From Gammaproteobacteria bacterium (lineage in GTDB: Bacteria > Pseudomonadota > Gammaproteobacteria > JAADJB01): a stretch of DNA of 64,000 nt. The notes beneath the pieces are model-generated. The model did not search any database, was not told the DNA's origin, and worked only from the letters and a program-made list of their open reading frames with translations. The stretch is from positions 1 to 64,000 of the forward strand of contig JAADJB010000014.1 in assembly GCA_013151035.1 (NCBI GenBank), given 5' to 3'. Below, in pieces: positions 7,310 to 44,543 of this stretch (position 1 is its first letter; each line of letters begins with the position of its first letter). The translations under genes were made by a program, and so were the position numbers.

Positions 7310-7369
7310 GGTGCGCAGTGCGCGCCCTACCTGATATATGCCACAGGGTAGGGTGCGTACTACGCACCA
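7310..7369. repeat. Dispersed GGTGCGC/GGTAGGGTGCGTACC inverted repeat (family 2)
   Basis: GGTGCGCAGTGCGCGCCCTA (from 7310) and GGTAGGGTGCGTACTACGCA (to 7369) form inverted arms of about 22 bases around a 15-base loop, lying between the phosphatase and aminotransferase genes. Each arm is itself a small palindrome. The same unit occurs at 61389-61453 as a pair and at 31146, 44539 and 15661 as single arms. Confidence 0.8.
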
Positions 7370-8576: not shown

Positions 8577-8599
8577 ACCGGGGACAGACCACGGTTTTA
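8574..8599. repeat. Single REP, left side of RAYT
   Basis: TAAACCGGGGACAGACCACG then GTTTTA; one extra T relative to the 25-base consensus. It sits between, and forms the stop codons of, the converging aminotransferase and RAYT genes. Confidence 0.9.
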
Positions 8600-9286
8600 G
8601 CTGTTTTTTCTGGGACGACCAGATTCCCCCGGCATCACCCTGCGGCCAAGGATTGATTCAATCTGTGCTTTGAAATGGTCTGTTCCTAATGCAAAGTTAC
8701 CATTGGTTGCAGAACGGATGTTATCAAGTATTTCAGTGTCAATCGGATGTTGAAATAGTTTGCGATAGTTTTGTTTGCGGTGGTTATCATCGTGACCAAG
8801 ACCTTTGTAAATATCGTGTGGTGTAATCAAATCAGAGTTATCATTTAGTGCATTAATTCGATAACTGGACCACTGATATTCTTCGGGGTGCTTGACCATG
8901 TATGCTCGTACTGGATTTGATTCTATATAGCGGTAGCAGTTAAGGATGTAATTTTCTTCTTGTGTGATGCAGGAACGGAATCGGCCTTCCCACAATGTGC
9001 CGCTACGATGATGTGAGCGGTTAATATACTGAACATAGTGCTGTCCCAGACGTTTCATTAAAATACTAACAGAATCTTTTTTATGTGGCGTAAGTAGTAA
9101 ATGAACATGATTGGTCATGAGGACGTAGGCATGAATAGAACATACACTTAATTCGGCGTATTCTTTCAGCCAATCCAGATAAAACAGATAATCATTTTTG
9201 GTGTAAAAACAGGGTTGACGGTTGTTGCCACGTTGAATGATGTGTAAAGGCGTGTCAGGTAACACAATACGAGGTCGTCTTGGCAT
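8597..9286 (-). CDS. rayT: REP-associated tyrosine transposase (RAYT), Y1/HUH family
   Basis: The 229-residue protein begins MPRRPRIVLPDTPLHIIQRG and has the IS200-like HUH motif (His60-Val-His62 in TNHVHLLL) and a candidate catalytic Tyr at 84 or 87 (QHYVQYINR). The conserved GTLWEGRFRSC and YIESNPVRA blocks place it with RAYTs. RAYTs cut and move REP/REPIN single-stranded hairpins in trans. The identical REP sequence flanks it on both sides and occurs at six or more sites within 11 kb, so this is very likely the enzyme that spread them. The C-terminal 60 residues (SILGRRVMPGESGRPRKNS) are a typical RAYT tail, and the gene looks intact. Confidence 0.95.
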   Translation of the reverse strand: MPRRPRIVLPDTPLHIIQRGNNRQPCFYTKNDYLFYLDWLKEYAELSVCSIHAYVLMTNHVHLLLTPHKKDSVSILMKRLGQHYVQYINRSHHRSGTLWEGRFRSCITQEENYILNCYRYIESNPVRAYMVKHPEEYQWSSYRINALNDNSDLITPHDIYKGLGHDDNHRKQNYRKLFQHPIDTEILDNIRSATNGNFALGTDHFKAQIESILGRRVMPGESGRPRKNS

Positions 9287-24537: not shown

Positions 24538-25863
24538 ATGTCATTTGATTCCCTCGGTCTGTCGGCCGAATTAATCCGTGCTGTGTCTGAACAAGGCTAT
24601 AGTGAACCCACCCCGATTCAAAAACAGGCGATTCCGATTATTCTTTCGGGACGTGACCTTCTGGGTGGCGCGCAAACCGGCACCGGTAAGACCGCCGGTT
24701 TTACGCTGCCATTACTGCATCTTTTAAGTCAACAGGCACAAGGTAATGGGCATCGTGCTGTACGTGCGTTGATCCTTACACCCACACGTGAGCTGGCCGC
24801 TCAGGTGGGTGAAAGTGTGGCGACTTATGGTAAACACTTACCATTAAAGTCAATGGTCATCTTTGGTGGTGTCAAAATTAACCCGCAGATTGCAAAGCTG
24901 CGTCATGGTGTCGATATCCTGGTGGCAACACCAGGTCGTCTACTGGACCATGCCAGTCAGCGTACGGTTGATCTTTCCAAGGTTGATATCCTGGTGCTGG
25001 ATGAAGCGGATCGTATGTTGGATATGGGCTTTATTCACGATATTAAAAAGGTGCTGGCTCTATTACCTTCGAATCGACAGAATCTATTGTTCTCAGCCAC
25101 CTTCTCGGAGGATATGAAACGCTTGGCAGACAAACTGCTGGATTCACCTGCACTGATTGAAGTGGCTCGCCGTAATACGGCATCAGAGAGTGTTGAGCAG
25201 ATGGTACATCCGGTTGATCGTGAACGTAAACGTGAATTATTATCCTTCCTGATCGGGTCGCAGAACTGGCGTCAGGTATTGGTGTTTACGCGTACTAAAC
25301 ATGGTGCTAATCGTTTGGCGGAACAGCTTGGAAAAGATGGCCTGACAGCTGCAGCGATTCATGGTAACAAGAGTCAGGGTGCGCGCACGCGAGCACTGGC
25401 TCAATTCAAGGATGGTACTGTGCGTATTCTGGTGGCGACTGATATTGCTGCGCGTGGGCTGGATATCGATCAACTGCCGCATGTGGTGAATTTTGAGTTG
25501 CCGAATGTACCGGAGGACTATATTCATCGTATCGGTCGTACCGGTCGTGCGGGTCGTGAGGGTGAGGCGATGTCACTGGTCTGCGTGGATGAGAATAAAC
25601 TGTTGCGCGATATCGAACGTCTGATGAATCGTGAGTTGCCGAAGGTGGTGGTGGATGGTTTTGAACCTGATCCATCAATCAAGCCACAGCCGATCCAGAA
25701 TGGACGTAACTCGCGCGGTGGCAAGGGACGTTCAGGGGGTAATGGTGGGCATAATCGTGCACGTTCAGGTGGACGTAATTCCAATGCCTCGGGTAAGCCG
25801 CATAGGAAACCAGCGGGTTCCGGGAATTCTTCATCGAATCGTGGTAATCGGCGCGCAAGTTAA
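24538..25863 (+). CDS. rhlE: DEAD-box RNA helicase RhlE
   Basis: The 441-residue protein has all DEAD-box motifs: Q motif ([14 protein letters not shown]), [27 protein letters not shown], and the C-terminal domain's [16 protein letters not shown] and [10 protein letters not shown]. The tail after about residue 375 is rich in Gly, Arg, Asn and Ser ([14 protein letters not shown]), as in RhlE proteins that bind structured RNA. A 240-base untranslated-looking region precedes it, which could be a long leader as in cold-regulated helicase mRNAs; I see no specific motif there. Confidence 0.95.
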
Positions 25864-25888: not shown

Positions 25889-26001
25889 AGGTGTGAAGTA
25901 CCTGTCTTTAGCAGAGACCCTTGCCCGCATGGACGCGGGCATGGAGCCTACAGGGATGTATTCACGGCGTGTCTCTGTTAAAGGCGGGTGCTTCATATCT
26001 C
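25889..26001 (+). repeat. Long hairpin repeat, copy A (possible structured RNA)
   Basis: The arms 25889-25918 and 25971-26001 are complementary apart from six positions, and all six are G-U pairs when read as RNA on this strand. The loop contains a second perfect hairpin, GCCCGC-ATGGAC-GCGGGC (25923-25940), and AGCCTACAGGGATG. The core (CAGAGACCCTTGCCCGCATG onwards) is shared with copy B at 43137-43250, in opposite orientation. It lies between rhlE and recQ. Confidence 0.82.
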
Positions 26002-26035
26002 TTGCTGTGCCCTGCATGATGACACGGAAGTTGAA

Positions 26036-27841
26036 ATGAGCAATAACGAGACACCATTGGATACTCTGCAACGGGTCTTTGGTTATTCCTCTTTTCGGCC
26101 ACAACAGCAGACCATTATTGAAGGACTGATTGAAGCTCAATCAGCCTTTGTATTGATGCCAACCGGTGGTGGTAAGTCACTCTGTTTTCAGATCCCGGCA
26201 CTGCATCGTTCTGGTGTGGCGATTGTAGTTTCACCACTGATTGCCTTGATGAAGGATCAGGTTGATAGCCTGCAGGCGAATGGTGTTGCTGCCGCCTATT
26301 ATAATTCCAGTCTGTCGGCAGAGGTATCGCGTCGGGTGTTGGCGCAATTCCATGCCGGGGAGCTGGATCTTTTGTATATTGCGCCTGAACGTCTGCTGGG
26401 CGATAGCTTCCTGGCACGACTGGAAGAGATCGAGATTGCCCTGTTTGCGATTGATGAAGCGCATTGTGTGTCACAATGGGGACATGATTTTCGCCCGGAA
26501 TATGTGCGCCTGGGTCGCTTACGTGAGCTTTTTCCGCAGATTCCTCTGATCGCCCTGACAGCGACCGCTGATGCACAGACCCGCCAGGATATTATCTCTC
26601 GCTTGCAATTGGGGTCGGCACCTTGTTATGTATCGAGTTTTGATCGACCTAATATTCGTTATACCGTTCTGGAGAAATCCAAACCCTTTGATCAGTTGAT
26701 TCGTTTTTTGGCTAATCGTCGAGATCAATCGGGGATTATTTATGCCTTGAGTCGTAAACGGGTGGAGGAGATTGCCGGGAAGTTACAGATACAGGGGCTC
26801 TCGGCAGAGCCCTATCATGCGGGCATGCCAACCGCACATCGTCAGCAGGTGCAGGAGGACTTCATCAAAGATGAATTACAGATTGTTGTTGCCACCGTGG
26901 CCTTTGGTATGGGAATTGATAAATCGAATGTACGCTTTGTGGTGCATTATGATATGCCCAAAAATATTGAGGGGTATTATCAGGAAACAGGACGTGCCGG
27001 GCGTGATGGGGTGGATTCTGAGGCACTTCTTTTATACGGGGCTCAGGATGTTGTTATGGCGCGTCGTTTGTTGGATAACAATCAAAACCCGGATCAGCAA
27101 CGGATTGAGATTCACAAGTTAAATGCGATGGTGGGTTTTTCAGAATCATTGACCTGCCGCCGACGTGTACTGTTGAATTATTTTGCCCAGGTCATGGATC
27201 AAGACTGTGGTAATTGTGATGTCTGCCTTGATCCCCCGCAGCGTTTTGATGCCACCGAGCTTGCGCGTAAGGCGTTGTCCTGTGTCTATCGTATACAGCA
27301 GCGTTTTGGTATCAAGCATGTTATTGATGTATTGCGTGGGGCGAATAATGAACGCATCCGTCGCTTTGGCCATGATCAGGTCTCGACCTATGGTATTGGC
27401 ACCGAAATGAACGATGATGAGTGGGGCAGCATTCTGCGTCAGTTGATCCACCGGGGTTATCTGATACAGGATATTGCCAATTATTCGGTGCTTAAATTAA
27501 CACCCTCAGCACGTCCTCTGTTGCGTGGTGAGATCGCACTGGAACTGGCGCGGCCACGCATTAAGGAAAAGACGCGTAGTAAGAAGGCGAAAAAACATAC
27601 CGCCTATGGCCCTTATGATGAAAACCTTTTTGAGCAGTTGCGGGTGTTACGTAAACAACTGGCAGATGATCAAGGCGTGCCACCCTATGTGGTGTTTGCT
27701 GATGCCAGCCTGATACAGATGGCACAGGATAAACCACAGAATGAATATGAACTGTTAGCGGTATCCGGTGTTGGTCAGCATAAGCTGGAGAAATATGGTG
27801 ACGCCTTTCTGAATATGATTGTTGAGTACAGTGAAAGTTAA
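26036..27841 (+). CDS. recQ: ATP-dependent DNA helicase RecQ
   Basis: From ATG 26036 (GGAAG 7 bases upstream) the product is 601 residues with the RecQ order: helicase motifs (MPTGGGKSLCFQIPAL, IDEAHCVSQWGHDFRPEY, TATAD, GRAGRDG), the zinc-binding RQC segment with CRR.VLLNYF and DCGNCDVC, a winged-helix region and a C-terminal HRDC domain (from about 520, EQLRVLRKQLADDQGVPPYVVF). It unwinds DNA in RecF-pathway repair. An in-frame GTG at 25988 falls inside the repeat and would add 16 residues of repeat-encoded sequence; it is unlikely. Confidence 0.96.
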   Translation: MSNNETPLDTLQRVFGYSSFRPQQQTIIEGLIEAQSAFVLMPTGGGKSLCFQIPALHRSGVAIVVSPLIALMKDQVDSLQANGVAAAYYNSSLSAEVSRRVLAQFHAGELDLLYIAPERLLGDSFLARLEEIEIALFAIDEAHCVSQWGHDFRPEYVRLGRLRELFPQIPLIALTATADAQTRQDIISRLQLGSAPCYVSSFDRPNIRYTVLEKSKPFDQLIRFLANRRDQSGIIYALSRKRVEEIAGKLQIQGLSAEPYHAGMPTAHRQQVQEDFIKDELQIVVATVAFGMGIDKSNVRFVVHYDMPKNIEGYYQETGRAGRDGVDSEALLLYGAQDVVMARRLLDNNQNPDQQRIEIHKLNAMVGFSESLTCRRRVLLNYFAQVMDQDCGNCDVCLDPPQRFDATELARKALSCVYRIQQRFGIKHVIDVLRGANNERIRRFGHDQVSTYGIGTEMNDDEWGSILRQLIHRGYLIQDIANYSVLKLTPSARPLLRGEIALELARPRIKEKTRSKKAKKHTAYGPYDENLFEQLRVLRKQLADDQGVPPYVVFADASLIQMAQDKPQNEYELLAVSGVGQHKLEKYGDAFLNMIVEYSES

Positions 27842-41199: not shown

Positions 41200-43116
41200 A
41201 TGTTGCAGGTTATTCGTGATCGGGTCACAGGCTGGTTTGCATGGGTTATTGTTGGTCTGATTTCAGCGATATTTGTTTTAGGTGGAGTTAGCTCTTATCT
41301 GGATGACGATGCCAGTTTTTATGCCGCGCAGGTGAATGATGTTGATATTTCTATATATGAATATCAACGTTCATATCAGCAACAGAAACAACGTATGCGT
41401 CAACTAATGGGTGCAAGAGCGACCCCTGCTTTGTTGGAAAGCAAGGCGTTTAAGGCACAGGTGCTTAATCGTCTGGTTGATGATGAGATTCTTGTGCAGG
41501 CCGCAATGAAGATGGGTTTTTCTGTGGGGGATCAGTTGCTTGCTGTACATATTCAGCGCATTCCTGATTTTCAGGAAGACGGTGTATTCTCTTCTGAACG
41601 TTATCGTAATTCATTAACGATACAGGGGATGTCACCTTCTCAGTTTGAGTATTACATGAGACGTTCTATTTTGTTAAATCAGATTAGAGGTTCTATTGAG
41701 TTGCCTGTCATTATTACCGAACGTGATGTGACTGAACTATTGGCGATACAGAGCCAGCAACGTTCATTGCAGTATATACAGTTGCCACTGGCAGCAGTGA
41801 ATAAGGATATTGATGTTTCTGATCAGGAAATATTGCTTTTTTACACGGATCATAAGCAGGATTATATGAATCCAGAACGTGTGCAGCTGGCCTATATTGA
41901 GCTGGATGTTAATAAGCTAATAAAACAGGTTGAAATCCCTGGAGAAGATGAGGTTCTTACCTTATATGAGGAACAAAGTGATTCCTTTGTTAAGCCGGAA
42001 CAACGACAGGCACGTCATATTTTAATGCAGGTATCCTCTGATGCAGGTGATGAGGCGTTAGCCTCAGCTAGAAAGAAAGCGCAGTCTGTTCTTGAGCGGA
42101 TTAATCAGGGTGAGGATTTTGCTGTATTAGCAAAAGAGTTTTCTGATGACCCCGGATCTGCCCAGCAAGGCGGAGATCTTGGTTTATTTGAAAAAGGCTT
42201 GATGGAAGCATCATTCGATGATGTGGTGTTTTCCCTGAAAGAAGGGGATGTGAGCGATCTGGTGCAGACGACCTTTGGTTTCCATATTATTCAATTGACT
42301 GCTATTCAGGAAGAAAAGGTCAAGCCACTGGCTGAGGTGCGTGACGAGATTATCAGGAATTATCGTACGGATAAGGCTGGAAAATTATTTGTTGATCAAT
42401 CAGACCTGCTGGCAAATCTGAGTTATGAGTCACCTGACAACCTGGAGGTGGCGGCAGAGGCACTGGGTTTGACAGTCATTAATACCGACTGGATTACTCG
42501 ACAGGGTGATGGTCAGGGTATTAGCGGGAATCCAGAAGTTCTTACTGCTGCGTTTAGTCATGATGTGCTGGATCTGTCTAATAATAGTGAGGTGGTTGAG
42601 TTGTCGCCTGATCATGTTGTTGTGCTGCGGGTGCTTCAACATGAGGCTGCTTCAGTTAAACCGCTTGATCAGGTTCGTGAAGATATCAGCGTGGCTATCC
42701 ATAATAGTAAGGCAGGGAAGGCATTACGTGCTCGTGGTGAGGCCTTGCTTGCTCGTGTCAGAGAGGGTGAAACCCTGGCGGTATTGGCGCAGGAGCTGGA
42801 TCTTGAATTGAAAAAGAGTAGTGTGATTAATCGTACGGATAGCACTTATGATCGTGCCATTATTCAAGCTGCATTCCAGATGTCGGTGGATGAGAATAGT
42901 GCCGCATTGGTTGATGGTGTGGTGTTGTCTGCGGGTGATTATGCCCTGGTGCAGTTACTGGATGTAGAGGAAGGTGACGCACTGACACTGGATGATCCTG
43001 CGCGTAAAGGCTTTCGTCAGAAGCTTGAGCAGTTGTATGCGAATAGTGAGTATGAGTCGTTTATGAAGGGTTTGCGTGATAAGGCGGATGTTAATTTGAA
43101 TTTGGGTAAATTATAA
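41200..43116 (+). CDS. ppiD: Periplasmic folding chaperone PpiD (SurA-N and parvulin domains)
   Basis: The 638-residue protein is anchored by one N-terminal membrane helix (about 12-33), has a SurA-like chaperone region (residues 36-190), one parvulin PPIC domain (about 268-362, QARHILMQVSSDAG...GGDLGLFEKG...TTFGFHIIQL) and a C-terminal region. PpiD sits at the SecYEG exit and helps newly exported proteins. It follows hupB as in E. coli. Its stop is followed by the long hairpin repeat. Confidence 0.94.
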   Translation: MLQVIRDRVTGWFAWVIVGLISAIFVLGGVSSYLDDDASFYAAQVNDVDISIYEYQRSYQQQKQRMRQLMGARATPALLESKAFKAQVLNRLVDDEILVQAAMKMGFSVGDQLLAVHIQRIPDFQEDGVFSSERYRNSLTIQGMSPSQFEYYMRRSILLNQIRGSIELPVIITERDVTELLAIQSQQRSLQYIQLPLAAVNKDIDVSDQEILLFYTDHKQDYMNPERVQLAYIELDVNKLIKQVEIPGEDEVLTLYEEQSDSFVKPEQRQARHILMQVSSDAGDEALASARKKAQSVLERINQGEDFAVLAKEFSDDPGSAQQGGDLGLFEKGLMEASFDDVVFSLKEGDVSDLVQTTFGFHIIQLTAIQEEKVKPLAEVRDEIIRNYRTDKAGKLFVDQSDLLANLSYESPDNLEVAAEALGLTVINTDWITRQGDGQGISGNPEVLTAAFSHDVLDLSNNSEVVELSPDHVVVLRVLQHEAASVKPLDQVREDISVAIHNSKAGKALRARGEALLARVREGETLAVLAQELDLELKKSSVINRTDSTYDRAIIQAAFQMSVDENSAALVDGVVLSAGDYALVQLLDVEEGDALTLDDPARKGFRQKLEQLYANSEYESFMKGLRDKADVNLNLGKL

Positions 43117-43136: not shown

Positions 43137-43250
43137 GAGACATGGATTGCTCCTTTATATCAGAGACTCGCCGTAAAACCATCCCTGGTGGCTCCATGCC
43201 CGCGTCCATGCGGGCAAGGGTCTCTGATATAAAGGAGCAACCCATGTCTC
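43137..43250 (-). repeat. Long hairpin repeat, copy B (possible structured RNA)
   Basis: The 31-base arms 43137-43167 and 43220-43250 are complementary at 30 of 31 positions; the one exception is a G-U pair when read as minus-strand RNA. The loop contains GCCCGC-GTCCAT-GCGGGC (43198-43215). It shares its core with copy A at 25889-26001 but in reverse orientation. It lies between ppiD and the symporter gene. Confidence 0.85.
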
Positions 43251-43277
43251 TTGAGTTAGCTTGGTGTATTGGTGGCG

Positions 43278-44543
43278 ATGTTAAAACTTAAACTTCATTG
43301 GCAGATTATTATTGCTCTGGTTCTTGCTGTGGTTGCGGGGAGCTTGAGTGGTAAGGATGCGGCTGTGTTCGGTCTCCGTTTTTATCAGGTCTACGATTTT
43401 ATTGGCACCTTGTTTATGAATGCCTTGAAGATGTTGATTGTGCCGTTGATCATGTCTTCTATTATCAGTGGTGTTGCGCGTTTGGGTGGTGGCTCTCTGG
43501 GGCGCTTGGGTGGCAAGACCTTGACCTATTATGCGGCTACCAGTCTAATTGCGATCCTGATTGGTTTGAGCATGGTTAATCTGATTGAGCCGGGTATTGT
43601 CGATGGTGAACCAGCGCATGAGTTGATTGGTCTTAATCAGGCGGCAGACGAGGTGGTGTCCCGGGTAGAAGGTCGGGGTATTGCGGATGTAGTTGATGTC
43701 TTTTTGCGTATGGTGCCGGTTAATATTGTTGATGCGGCTGCACAAGGGCAGATGTTGGGGCTGATATTTTTTAGCCTGTTATTCGGATATTTTATGACCC
43801 GGGTGACAAAGGAACATCATGGGGTTCTGGCGACATTCTGGGAGGCGATCTTCGCAGTAATGATGAAGATCACCGAGTGGGTGATGTCTTTTGCACCGCT
43901 GGGTGTGTTTGCTCTGGTGGCTAAGGTGGTTGCGGTGACGGGGTTGGCTGCGATAAAACCCTTATTGTTGTTCTTCCTGACAACATTGGGGGCATTATTT
44001 GTCCACTTTGCCATTGCCTTACCTTTGATTCTATTGTTTGTTGCCAGGGTCAATCCCTTACCACATTATCAGGCGATGGCACCGGCATTGTTAACCGCAT
44101 TTTCTACCGCATCGTCCTCATCAACCTTACCGATTACTATGGATTGTGTGGAAAAGCGTGCTGGAGTATCTAATCGCACCAGTAGCTTTGTATTGCCGCT
44201 GGGGGCAACGGTTAATATGGATGGTACCGCTCTGTATGAATGTGTAGCCGCATTGTTTCTGGCTCAGGCCTATGGGCTTGATCTGGGCTTTGCCGAACAA
44301 TTTTCTATTGTGTTGATTGCGTTACTGACATCCATTGGTGTTGCCGGTATTCCGGCGGCTAGTCTGGTGGCGATTACGATTATTCTAACCTCAATTGGTT
44401 TGCCTGCCGAGGCGGTTGGTATCATCCTTGCCGTTGATCGTGTGCTGGATATGTGCAGAACCAGTGTTAATGTGTTCAGCGATTCTTGTGGTGCGGTAGT
44501 GGTCGGAAAGCTGGAAGGTGAGCAGGATATTCTAAAACGGTAG
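43278..44543 (+). CDS. Dicarboxylate/amino acid:cation symporter (SLC1/DAACS family)
   Basis: The product (about 421 residues from ATG 43278) has eight hydrophobic helices and the DAACS hallmarks: the Ser-rich TASSSSTLP hairpin, GATVNMDGTALYE (Na+-site NMDGT), and DRVLDMCRTSVNVFSDSCGA with the substrate-binding Asp/Arg/Thr/Asn. The family takes up glutamate, aspartate or C4 dicarboxylates with Na+ or H+. Arg in DMCRTSVN is common in acidic amino-acid and dicarboxylate carriers. GTG 43272 is an alternative start; no strong ribosome site is seen. The TAG stop lies within a family-2 repeat. Confidence 0.93.
   Translation: MLKLKLHWQIIIALVLAVVAGSLSGKDAAVFGLRFYQVYDFIGTLFMNALKMLIVPLIMSSIISGVARLGGGSLGRLGGKTLTYYAATSLIAILIGLSMVNLIEPGIVDGEPAHELIGLNQAADEVVSRVEGRGIADVVDVFLRMVPVNIVDAAAQGQMLGLIFFSLLFGYFMTRVTKEHHGVLATFWEAIFAVMMKITEWVMSFAPLGVFALVAKVVAVTGLAAIKPLLLFFLTTLGALFVHFAIALPLILLFVARVNPLPHYQAMAPALLTAFSTASSSSTLPITMDCVEKRAGVSNRTSSFVLPLGATVNMDGTALYECVAALFLAQAYGLDLGFAEQFSIVLIALLTSIGVAGIPAASLVAITIILTSIGLPAEAVGIILAVDRVLDMCRTSVNVFSDSCGAVVVGKLEGEQDILKR

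Follow-up and report, generated by a model that had tools for sequence, protein, structure and literature searches.

A dispersed palindromic repeat family of Gammaproteobacteria, homologous to YPAL/RU-2, with a predicted dual CsrA/RsmA site

Two long hairpins, copies A and B, were analyzed in a window of 64,000 nucleotides (the whole stretch of DNA under study) from a gammaproteobacterial genome. The analysis confirms that the hairpin is real and lies far beyond chance, with the same sequence present about 115 times in the genome. Its architecture and its identity as a family are near certain. Copies A and B belong to a family of dispersed, probably mobile palindromic repeats in Gammaproteobacteria, which takes in the Yersinia repeat YPAL/RU-2. 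The reading that we favor, and to which we give even chances, is that of a YPAL-type mobile repeat carrying a predicted dual CsrA/RsmA site on the RNA of the strand that presents GGA in two hairpin loops (the GGA strand). The preliminary description of the hairpins had overlooked three points: they belong to a mobile repeat of about 115 copies, the key feature is not the arms but the two GGA loops, and most copies lie antisense to their neighbors.

Copy A spans positions 25889–26001 on the plus strand and, as judged from arm alignment and folding, has outer stem arms that drift yet pair. Its conserved 76-nt core (25907–25982) scores 91 bits with the class-wide covariance model R2 and 102.5 bits with the own-genome model R1. 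Within this core, hairpin 1 (25919–25944) has the loop CAUGGACG with its GGA at 25931–25933, and hairpin 2 (25946–25968), built on a GCC/GGC base, has the loop CAGGGAUG with its GGA at 25954–25956; both are delineated by the core alignment, covariation and loop counts. The plus strand folds at -73.9 kcal/mol versus -41.1 ± 4.0 kcal/mol for shuffled sequences (z = -8.25), and none of 200 shuffles folded as well. The 30 aligned arm positions comprise 24 Watson-Crick, three G-T and three T-G pairs and no A-C, in agreement with the earlier statement that all six arm differences are G-U or U-G. Copy A is in sense with its upstream gene, just 3′ of the stop codon, an orientation that is in the minority in the genome. 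This upstream gene encodes a DEAD-box RNA helicase (24538–25863, plus strand; stop codon 16–25 nt ahead of the element), and the downstream gene a RecQ helicase (25988–27841, plus strand), with its true start probably at the ATG at 26037.

Copy B spans positions 43137–43250 on the minus strand, as defined by arm alignment, and its 76-nt core (43156–43231) scores 89.4 bits with R2. According to the core alignment, hairpin 1 (43194–43219) again has the loop CAUGGACG, and hairpin 2 (43170–43192) combines the stem variant ACC/GGU with the loop CAGGGAUG. The arms contain 31 Watson-Crick pairs, the single G-T described previously, and one A-G at the inner end. The inner GCCCGC/GCGGGC hairpin of the preliminary description is found in copies A and B alike. 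Both flanking genes, a SurA/PpiD-type peptidyl-prolyl isomerase upstream (41200–43116, plus strand) and a sodium:dicarboxylate symporter downstream (43269–44543, plus strand; true start probably 43283), are antisense to the GGA strand.

Model R1, built from an alignment of own-genome copies, gives 115 matches dispersed over the 2.4-Mb genome, including copies A and B; a genome search with copy A as the query returned 40 scored places, and the core pattern 78. Copy length is nearly uniform across the genome. The outer arms vary among copies, to the point of wholly different sequence in some, but stay paired. No promoter-like sequence is conserved beyond about -60 upstream of the own-genome copies, and an element-borne promoter was rejected on these grounds. 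A run of five or more T residues is present in the right flank of 17 and the left flank of 8 of the 68 copies; an intrinsic terminator on the GGA strand was likewise rejected because the T-run is confined to a subset of copies. Target-site duplications in the own genome are unconvincing, as the longest shared flank strings (6.54) are close to those of a mismatched-pair control (6.16) and no clear duplications were seen.

The core is composed of 12 outer-stem pairs, hairpin 1, a short linker and hairpin 2. Hairpin 1 consists of 9 pairs with a conserved U mismatch, and hairpin 2 of 3+3 pairs with a 5-nt bulge. When the own copies are placed on this structure, standard pairs fill 98.2% of the cells and both sides have changed in 16 of the 27 pairs, whereas slid versions of the structure, used as a control, are 31–48% paired. 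Compensatory variants include CCCGC/GCGGG versus GCCGC/GCGGC and UAC/GUA versus ACC/GGU, and the foot of hairpin 1 is C...G in some copies and G...C in others. An alignment of 51 distinct cores from across the class is free of gaps over 76 columns and shows 95.6% paired cells, with a covariation score of 0.672 versus 0.145 after shuffling. The covariation-like pattern noted earlier extends to every helix and is strong in the stems, while the loops stay CANGGANG. At four loci (L046, L055, L058 and L062), an insert of about 48 nt in hairpin 2 gives rise to the extra hairpins CCTACATGGATGTAGG and GCAATGCAGGAGCAATTGC, that is, to additional GGA loops.

Among own-genome copies collected with a loose pattern that tolerates up to six mismatches, loop 1 reads CANGGANG in 65 of 67 and loop 2 in 66 of 67, with variation in the N positions and the stems. 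Both loops are ANGGAN closed by C-G, the spacing from GGA to GGA is 23 nt, and the GGAs are predicted to be unpaired with probabilities of 0.98–0.99 and 0.74–0.81. Because the class-wide scan pattern fixed GACC, GCA-GGA-GC, GAGC and CA-GGA-G, the invariance of these segments across the class is no evidence of conservation; that evidence comes from the own-genome copies. Non-palindromic loops that are static while their stems drift indicate recognition of one strand.

The sequence CANGGANG corresponds to the CsrA/RsmA (RsmE) consensus. The literature gives A/UCANGGANGU/A as the consensus for RsmE and also describes a core of the CsrA SELEX ligands, which UACAGGGAUGU in hairpin 2 of copy A matches. 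The element has GGA in hairpin loops, in the CANGGANG context and at two sites, as is expected of a CsrA/RsmA target. The conserved cargo would be an RNA element on the GGA strand, in which a long stem, free in sequence, may act as a clamp that holds the two neighboring hairpins, and two GGA loops 23 nt apart would offer the geometry for a single CsrA/RsmA dimer to be bound at both of its RNA sites. Were the GGA strand of a copy such as copy A transcribed, the transcript could bind CsrA/RsmA and thereby recruit or titrate it; copies A and B may themselves have been mobile. That the predicted partner is CsrA/RsmA stands at about fifty-fifty. Tentatively, and with less confidence, we propose an ancient family of Gammaproteobacteria, comprising YPAL, its antisense counterpart Ysr224 and high-copy relatives in many families, whose predicted dual CsrA/RsmA cargo would make it a distributed mobile CsrA sponge. 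If so, CsrA activity would be buffered or locally recruited by dozens to more than 100 transposable binding sites; a mobile element would be spreading sites for a global regulator, and CsrA titration would become a copy-number trait of the genome. Such a role would also explain why two loops are frozen class-wide while the rest of the element drifts, and would join the YPAL/RU-2, Ysr224, TwoAYGGAY and Csr/Rsm literatures in one testable proposal.

The outer stems allow the strands to be compared. The preliminary description rested on seven of seven differences being G-U, which is correct for copies A and B and does not hold for all copies: over 68 own-genome copies, the count is 142 G-U versus 39 A-C. 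States common to more than three copies account for 109 of the 142 G-U cells, and private mismatches number 8 G-U versus 11 A-C; for mismatches not common to the six nearest copies, the counts are 53 G-U versus 36 A-C (p = 0.09). A-C as often as G-U in other copies, the outcome named beforehand as contradicting an RNA fold, is thus found in part, among the private own-genome mismatches only, and single copies appear to be near neutral after insertion. A transcribed-strand cause, with sense copies rich in G-U and antisense copies rich in A-C, was rejected, as the private counts of 16:6 and 33:26 are not significant. In 74 distinct elements from other Gammaproteobacteria, mutually less than 75% identical, the outer stems read on the GGA strand contain 95 G-U versus 25 A-C (p = 8e-11; 43 elements versus 9), and in 27 of 43 cases the fold of the GGA strand is slightly more stable than that of the complementary strand (p = 0.01). 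Since the GGA strand lies on the negative-GC-skew strand in 82 of 143 cases in the hosts of this test, with no consistent orientation, replication-linked mutation bias is no explanation for the excess. Single-stranded DNA likewise favors G-T over A-C, so that the G-U bias alone is no proof of RNA. Over long times, a strand-specific constraint at the RNA level is likely to have acted on the family, and it is not supported for single copies in this genome; the selection on an RNA fold put forward earlier is supported for the family, with its covarying stems and its 95:25 ratio, and is weak within the genome, where most of the raw G-U excess is inherited.

The main puzzle for the CsrA reading is the antisense lie of most own-genome copies. 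Of 68 copies, 50 have the GGA strand antisense to both neighbors and 9 have it in sense. At most copies the mRNA would therefore carry no exposed GGA, which counts against most of them acting as sense 3′-UTR sponges in this genome. The bias was rejected as a family-wide rule; it is strong in the own genome, absent in elements of other species (-- 28, ++ 22, +- 38, -+ 19), and the orientation is mixed in genome G224. The own-genome copies also follow GC skew: 59 of 68 (70 of 81 in an earlier count) have their GGA strand on the strand of negative skew, among them 7 of the 8 that sit in gene-neutral contexts. Insertion may have been oriented by replication or by the target terminator, or CsrA sites in mRNAs may have been selected against. 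Besides the antisense majority, the lack of a conserved promoter and private mismatches with no clear strand preference speak against the CsrA reading, as does the annotation of Ysr224, the Yersinia sRNA counterpart of the element, on the opposite strand.

The main rival to the CsrA reading is a single-strand transposition signal, whereby a transposase would read the paired hairpins of the folded GGA strand, with loops and stem stability kept for mobility. The element is indeed a dispersed repeat, G-T hurts a DNA hairpin less than A-C, and the own-genome association with GC skew is what strand-specific insertion at the replication fork would give; private mismatches that look neutral are expected if only active source copies are selected. 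This explanation has no need for the coincidence of CANGGANG with the CsrA/RsmE motif in both hairpins, however, and it is at odds with the absence of REP-type transposase genes beside copies, the missing REP GTAG foot and the lack of orientation bias in elements of other species; we regard it as rather unlikely, though to be taken seriously. Less probable still is an ordinary transcribed repeat, whose long hairpin would stabilize or process mRNA 3′ ends in either orientation while its GGA loops have no partner. Stabilization of 3′ ends is a known view of YPAL and REP-like repeats. It accords with the position of copies close behind stop codons (at most 40 nt in 47 of 63 stop-side ends, median 15) and with the reported co-expression of YPAL with upstream genes, perhaps with an effect on RNA stability (PMC2229807), but leaves unexplained both the G-U strand bias and the two non-palindromic loops kept as CANGGANG class-wide while all stems change. 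A pure DNA palindrome with founder effects, in which the G-U pattern of copy A reflects chance and ancestry, would suit the shared and private own-genome mismatches and is nevertheless disfavored, indeed very improbable, because the bias recurs in 74 mutually divergent elements for which, given their inconsistent skew orientation, mutation bias does not account.

A scan of GTDB genomes with an exact pattern found at least 120 stretches; among the matches listed, almost all are from Gammaproteobacteria, with Xanthomonas, Stenotrophomonas, Haliea, Alteromonas, Shewanella, Rheinheimera, Methylococcaceae, Chromatiales and others as hosts. A match labelled Bacillus subtilis is probably contamination. 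Model R2 detects the element in 75 of 370 sampled Gammaproteobacteria genomes, and all 37 positives of a phylum-wide draw, the make-up of which is partly listed, fall within this class. Copy numbers reach 141 in G224, 44 in G083 and at least 48 in G035. In G224, close pairs in opposite orientation, 150–430 bp apart, are frequent (C36:88378- and 88651+; C1:37749- and 37991+). A tandem array at L282 (1788–3152, G523:C1) consists of six 227-bp units, each with one dual-GGA element and a GTAGGAGCGGCTTCAGCCGCGA REP, and results in twelve GGA hairpins in succession. Spread by phage was rejected: the core pattern has no match in viral contigs, no element was found in phage records, and one Yersinia-type copy occurs in a single viral contig. 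The own genome has one csrA, and csrA was found in 72 of the 75 element-bearing genomes; the other three (G066, G185 and G319) are all fragmented assemblies. Across the 370 genomes, csrA thus escaped detection in 3 of the 75 carriers of the element, compared with 45 of the 295 non-carriers (Fisher p = 0.007), an association that fits the CsrA reading and is confounded by phylogeny and genome reduction.

Comparison with known systems places the element among several families. It resembles REP/REPIN-RAYT systems as a short dispersed palindromic repeat, but has neither a GTAG foot nor an adjacent RAYT, and the REPs of the genome are a separate sequence; a REP/RAYT origin was rejected, with none of four Y1_Tnp genes beside a copy. 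The window does hold an independent REP system: a RAYT/IS200-like transposase gene (8597–9286, minus strand; Y1_Tnp, E = 7e-14) lies about 1.2 kb from two classic REPs (GTAGGGTGCG..CGCACC), and REP copies GTAGGGTGCGNNNNRCGCACC occur at 7310, 7348, 31147, 44540, 61389 and 61433 (7 matches versus 0.03 expected). Rfam microRNA matches were set aside as chance matches to long hairpins. The CsrA-sequestering sRNAs CsrB and RsmX-Y-Z have GGA hairpin loops, as the element does, and these are CsrA/RsmA binding sites (PMC4333381). They are, however, single genes with their own promoter and many sites, whereas the element is dispersed, with two sites and no conserved promoter; a sponge sRNA gene of the CsrB/RsmZ type was rejected for want of its own promoter and terminator.

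The consensus of Ysr224 (RF02770), a Yersinia sRNA, is the reverse complement of the element, but lies on the opposite strand and is annotated as a plain sRNA. With copy A it scores 13.5 bits (minus strand), and elsewhere 30.3 bits at best, below the Rfam gathering threshold of 70 bits. Ysr224 is among the most numerous bacterial sRNAs when every instance is counted (PMC9029176), which fits a repeat. What Ysr224 describes is a dispersed mobile repeat read in antisense, and the plain-sRNA annotation may have to be revised. On the GGA strand, the best Rfam match is TwoAYGGAY (RF01731), full length and in register (23.1 bits, E = 0.23); at its gathering threshold of 43 bits, there is no match in the 64-kb window. 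Both have two hairpins, A-Y/N-GGA-Y loops and a long, poorly conserved outer stem; the own-genome copies have ANGGAN in both loops, and AYGGAY in part of them. The second hairpin of TwoAYGGAY is much longer than that of the element, and TwoAYGGAY is not reported as a high-copy repeat. It has already been proposed to bind CsrA (PMC4333381).

A homologue is YPAL/RU-2, a MITE-like element of about 168 bp. A comparison by eye shows that the published sequence from Yersinia pestis includes the same core (PMC2759123), with the order hairpin 1 - TCGAGCC - hairpin 2 - TTTACGGCG and GGA in both loops. Model R2, built without Yersinia, recovers the YPAL-type copy of L273 with a score of 58.2 bits (E = 9e-12); a repeated GGCCACCTGTGTGGCC hairpin borders this element of 168 bp, and YPAL targets have been described with such a flanking hairpin (PMC2229807). 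In the published YPAL/RU-2 work consulted, no mention of GGA loops or CsrA was found, and none of the papers searched names both YPAL and CsrA, an absence that is not proof of novelty. Both families are intergenic, palindromic, close to stop codons and present in tens of copies per genome; most Yersinia species have 37–144 copies of YPAL, and Y. ruckeri has 2 (PMC2847712). By contrast, the outer arms are wholly different in sequence, the element departs from the 168-bp consensus, and no clear target-site duplications, which in YPAL are 3–26 bp, were seen at the own-genome copies. Because its core is homologous and its arms are different, the element is assigned to a family homologous to YPAL, distinct from YPAL itself.
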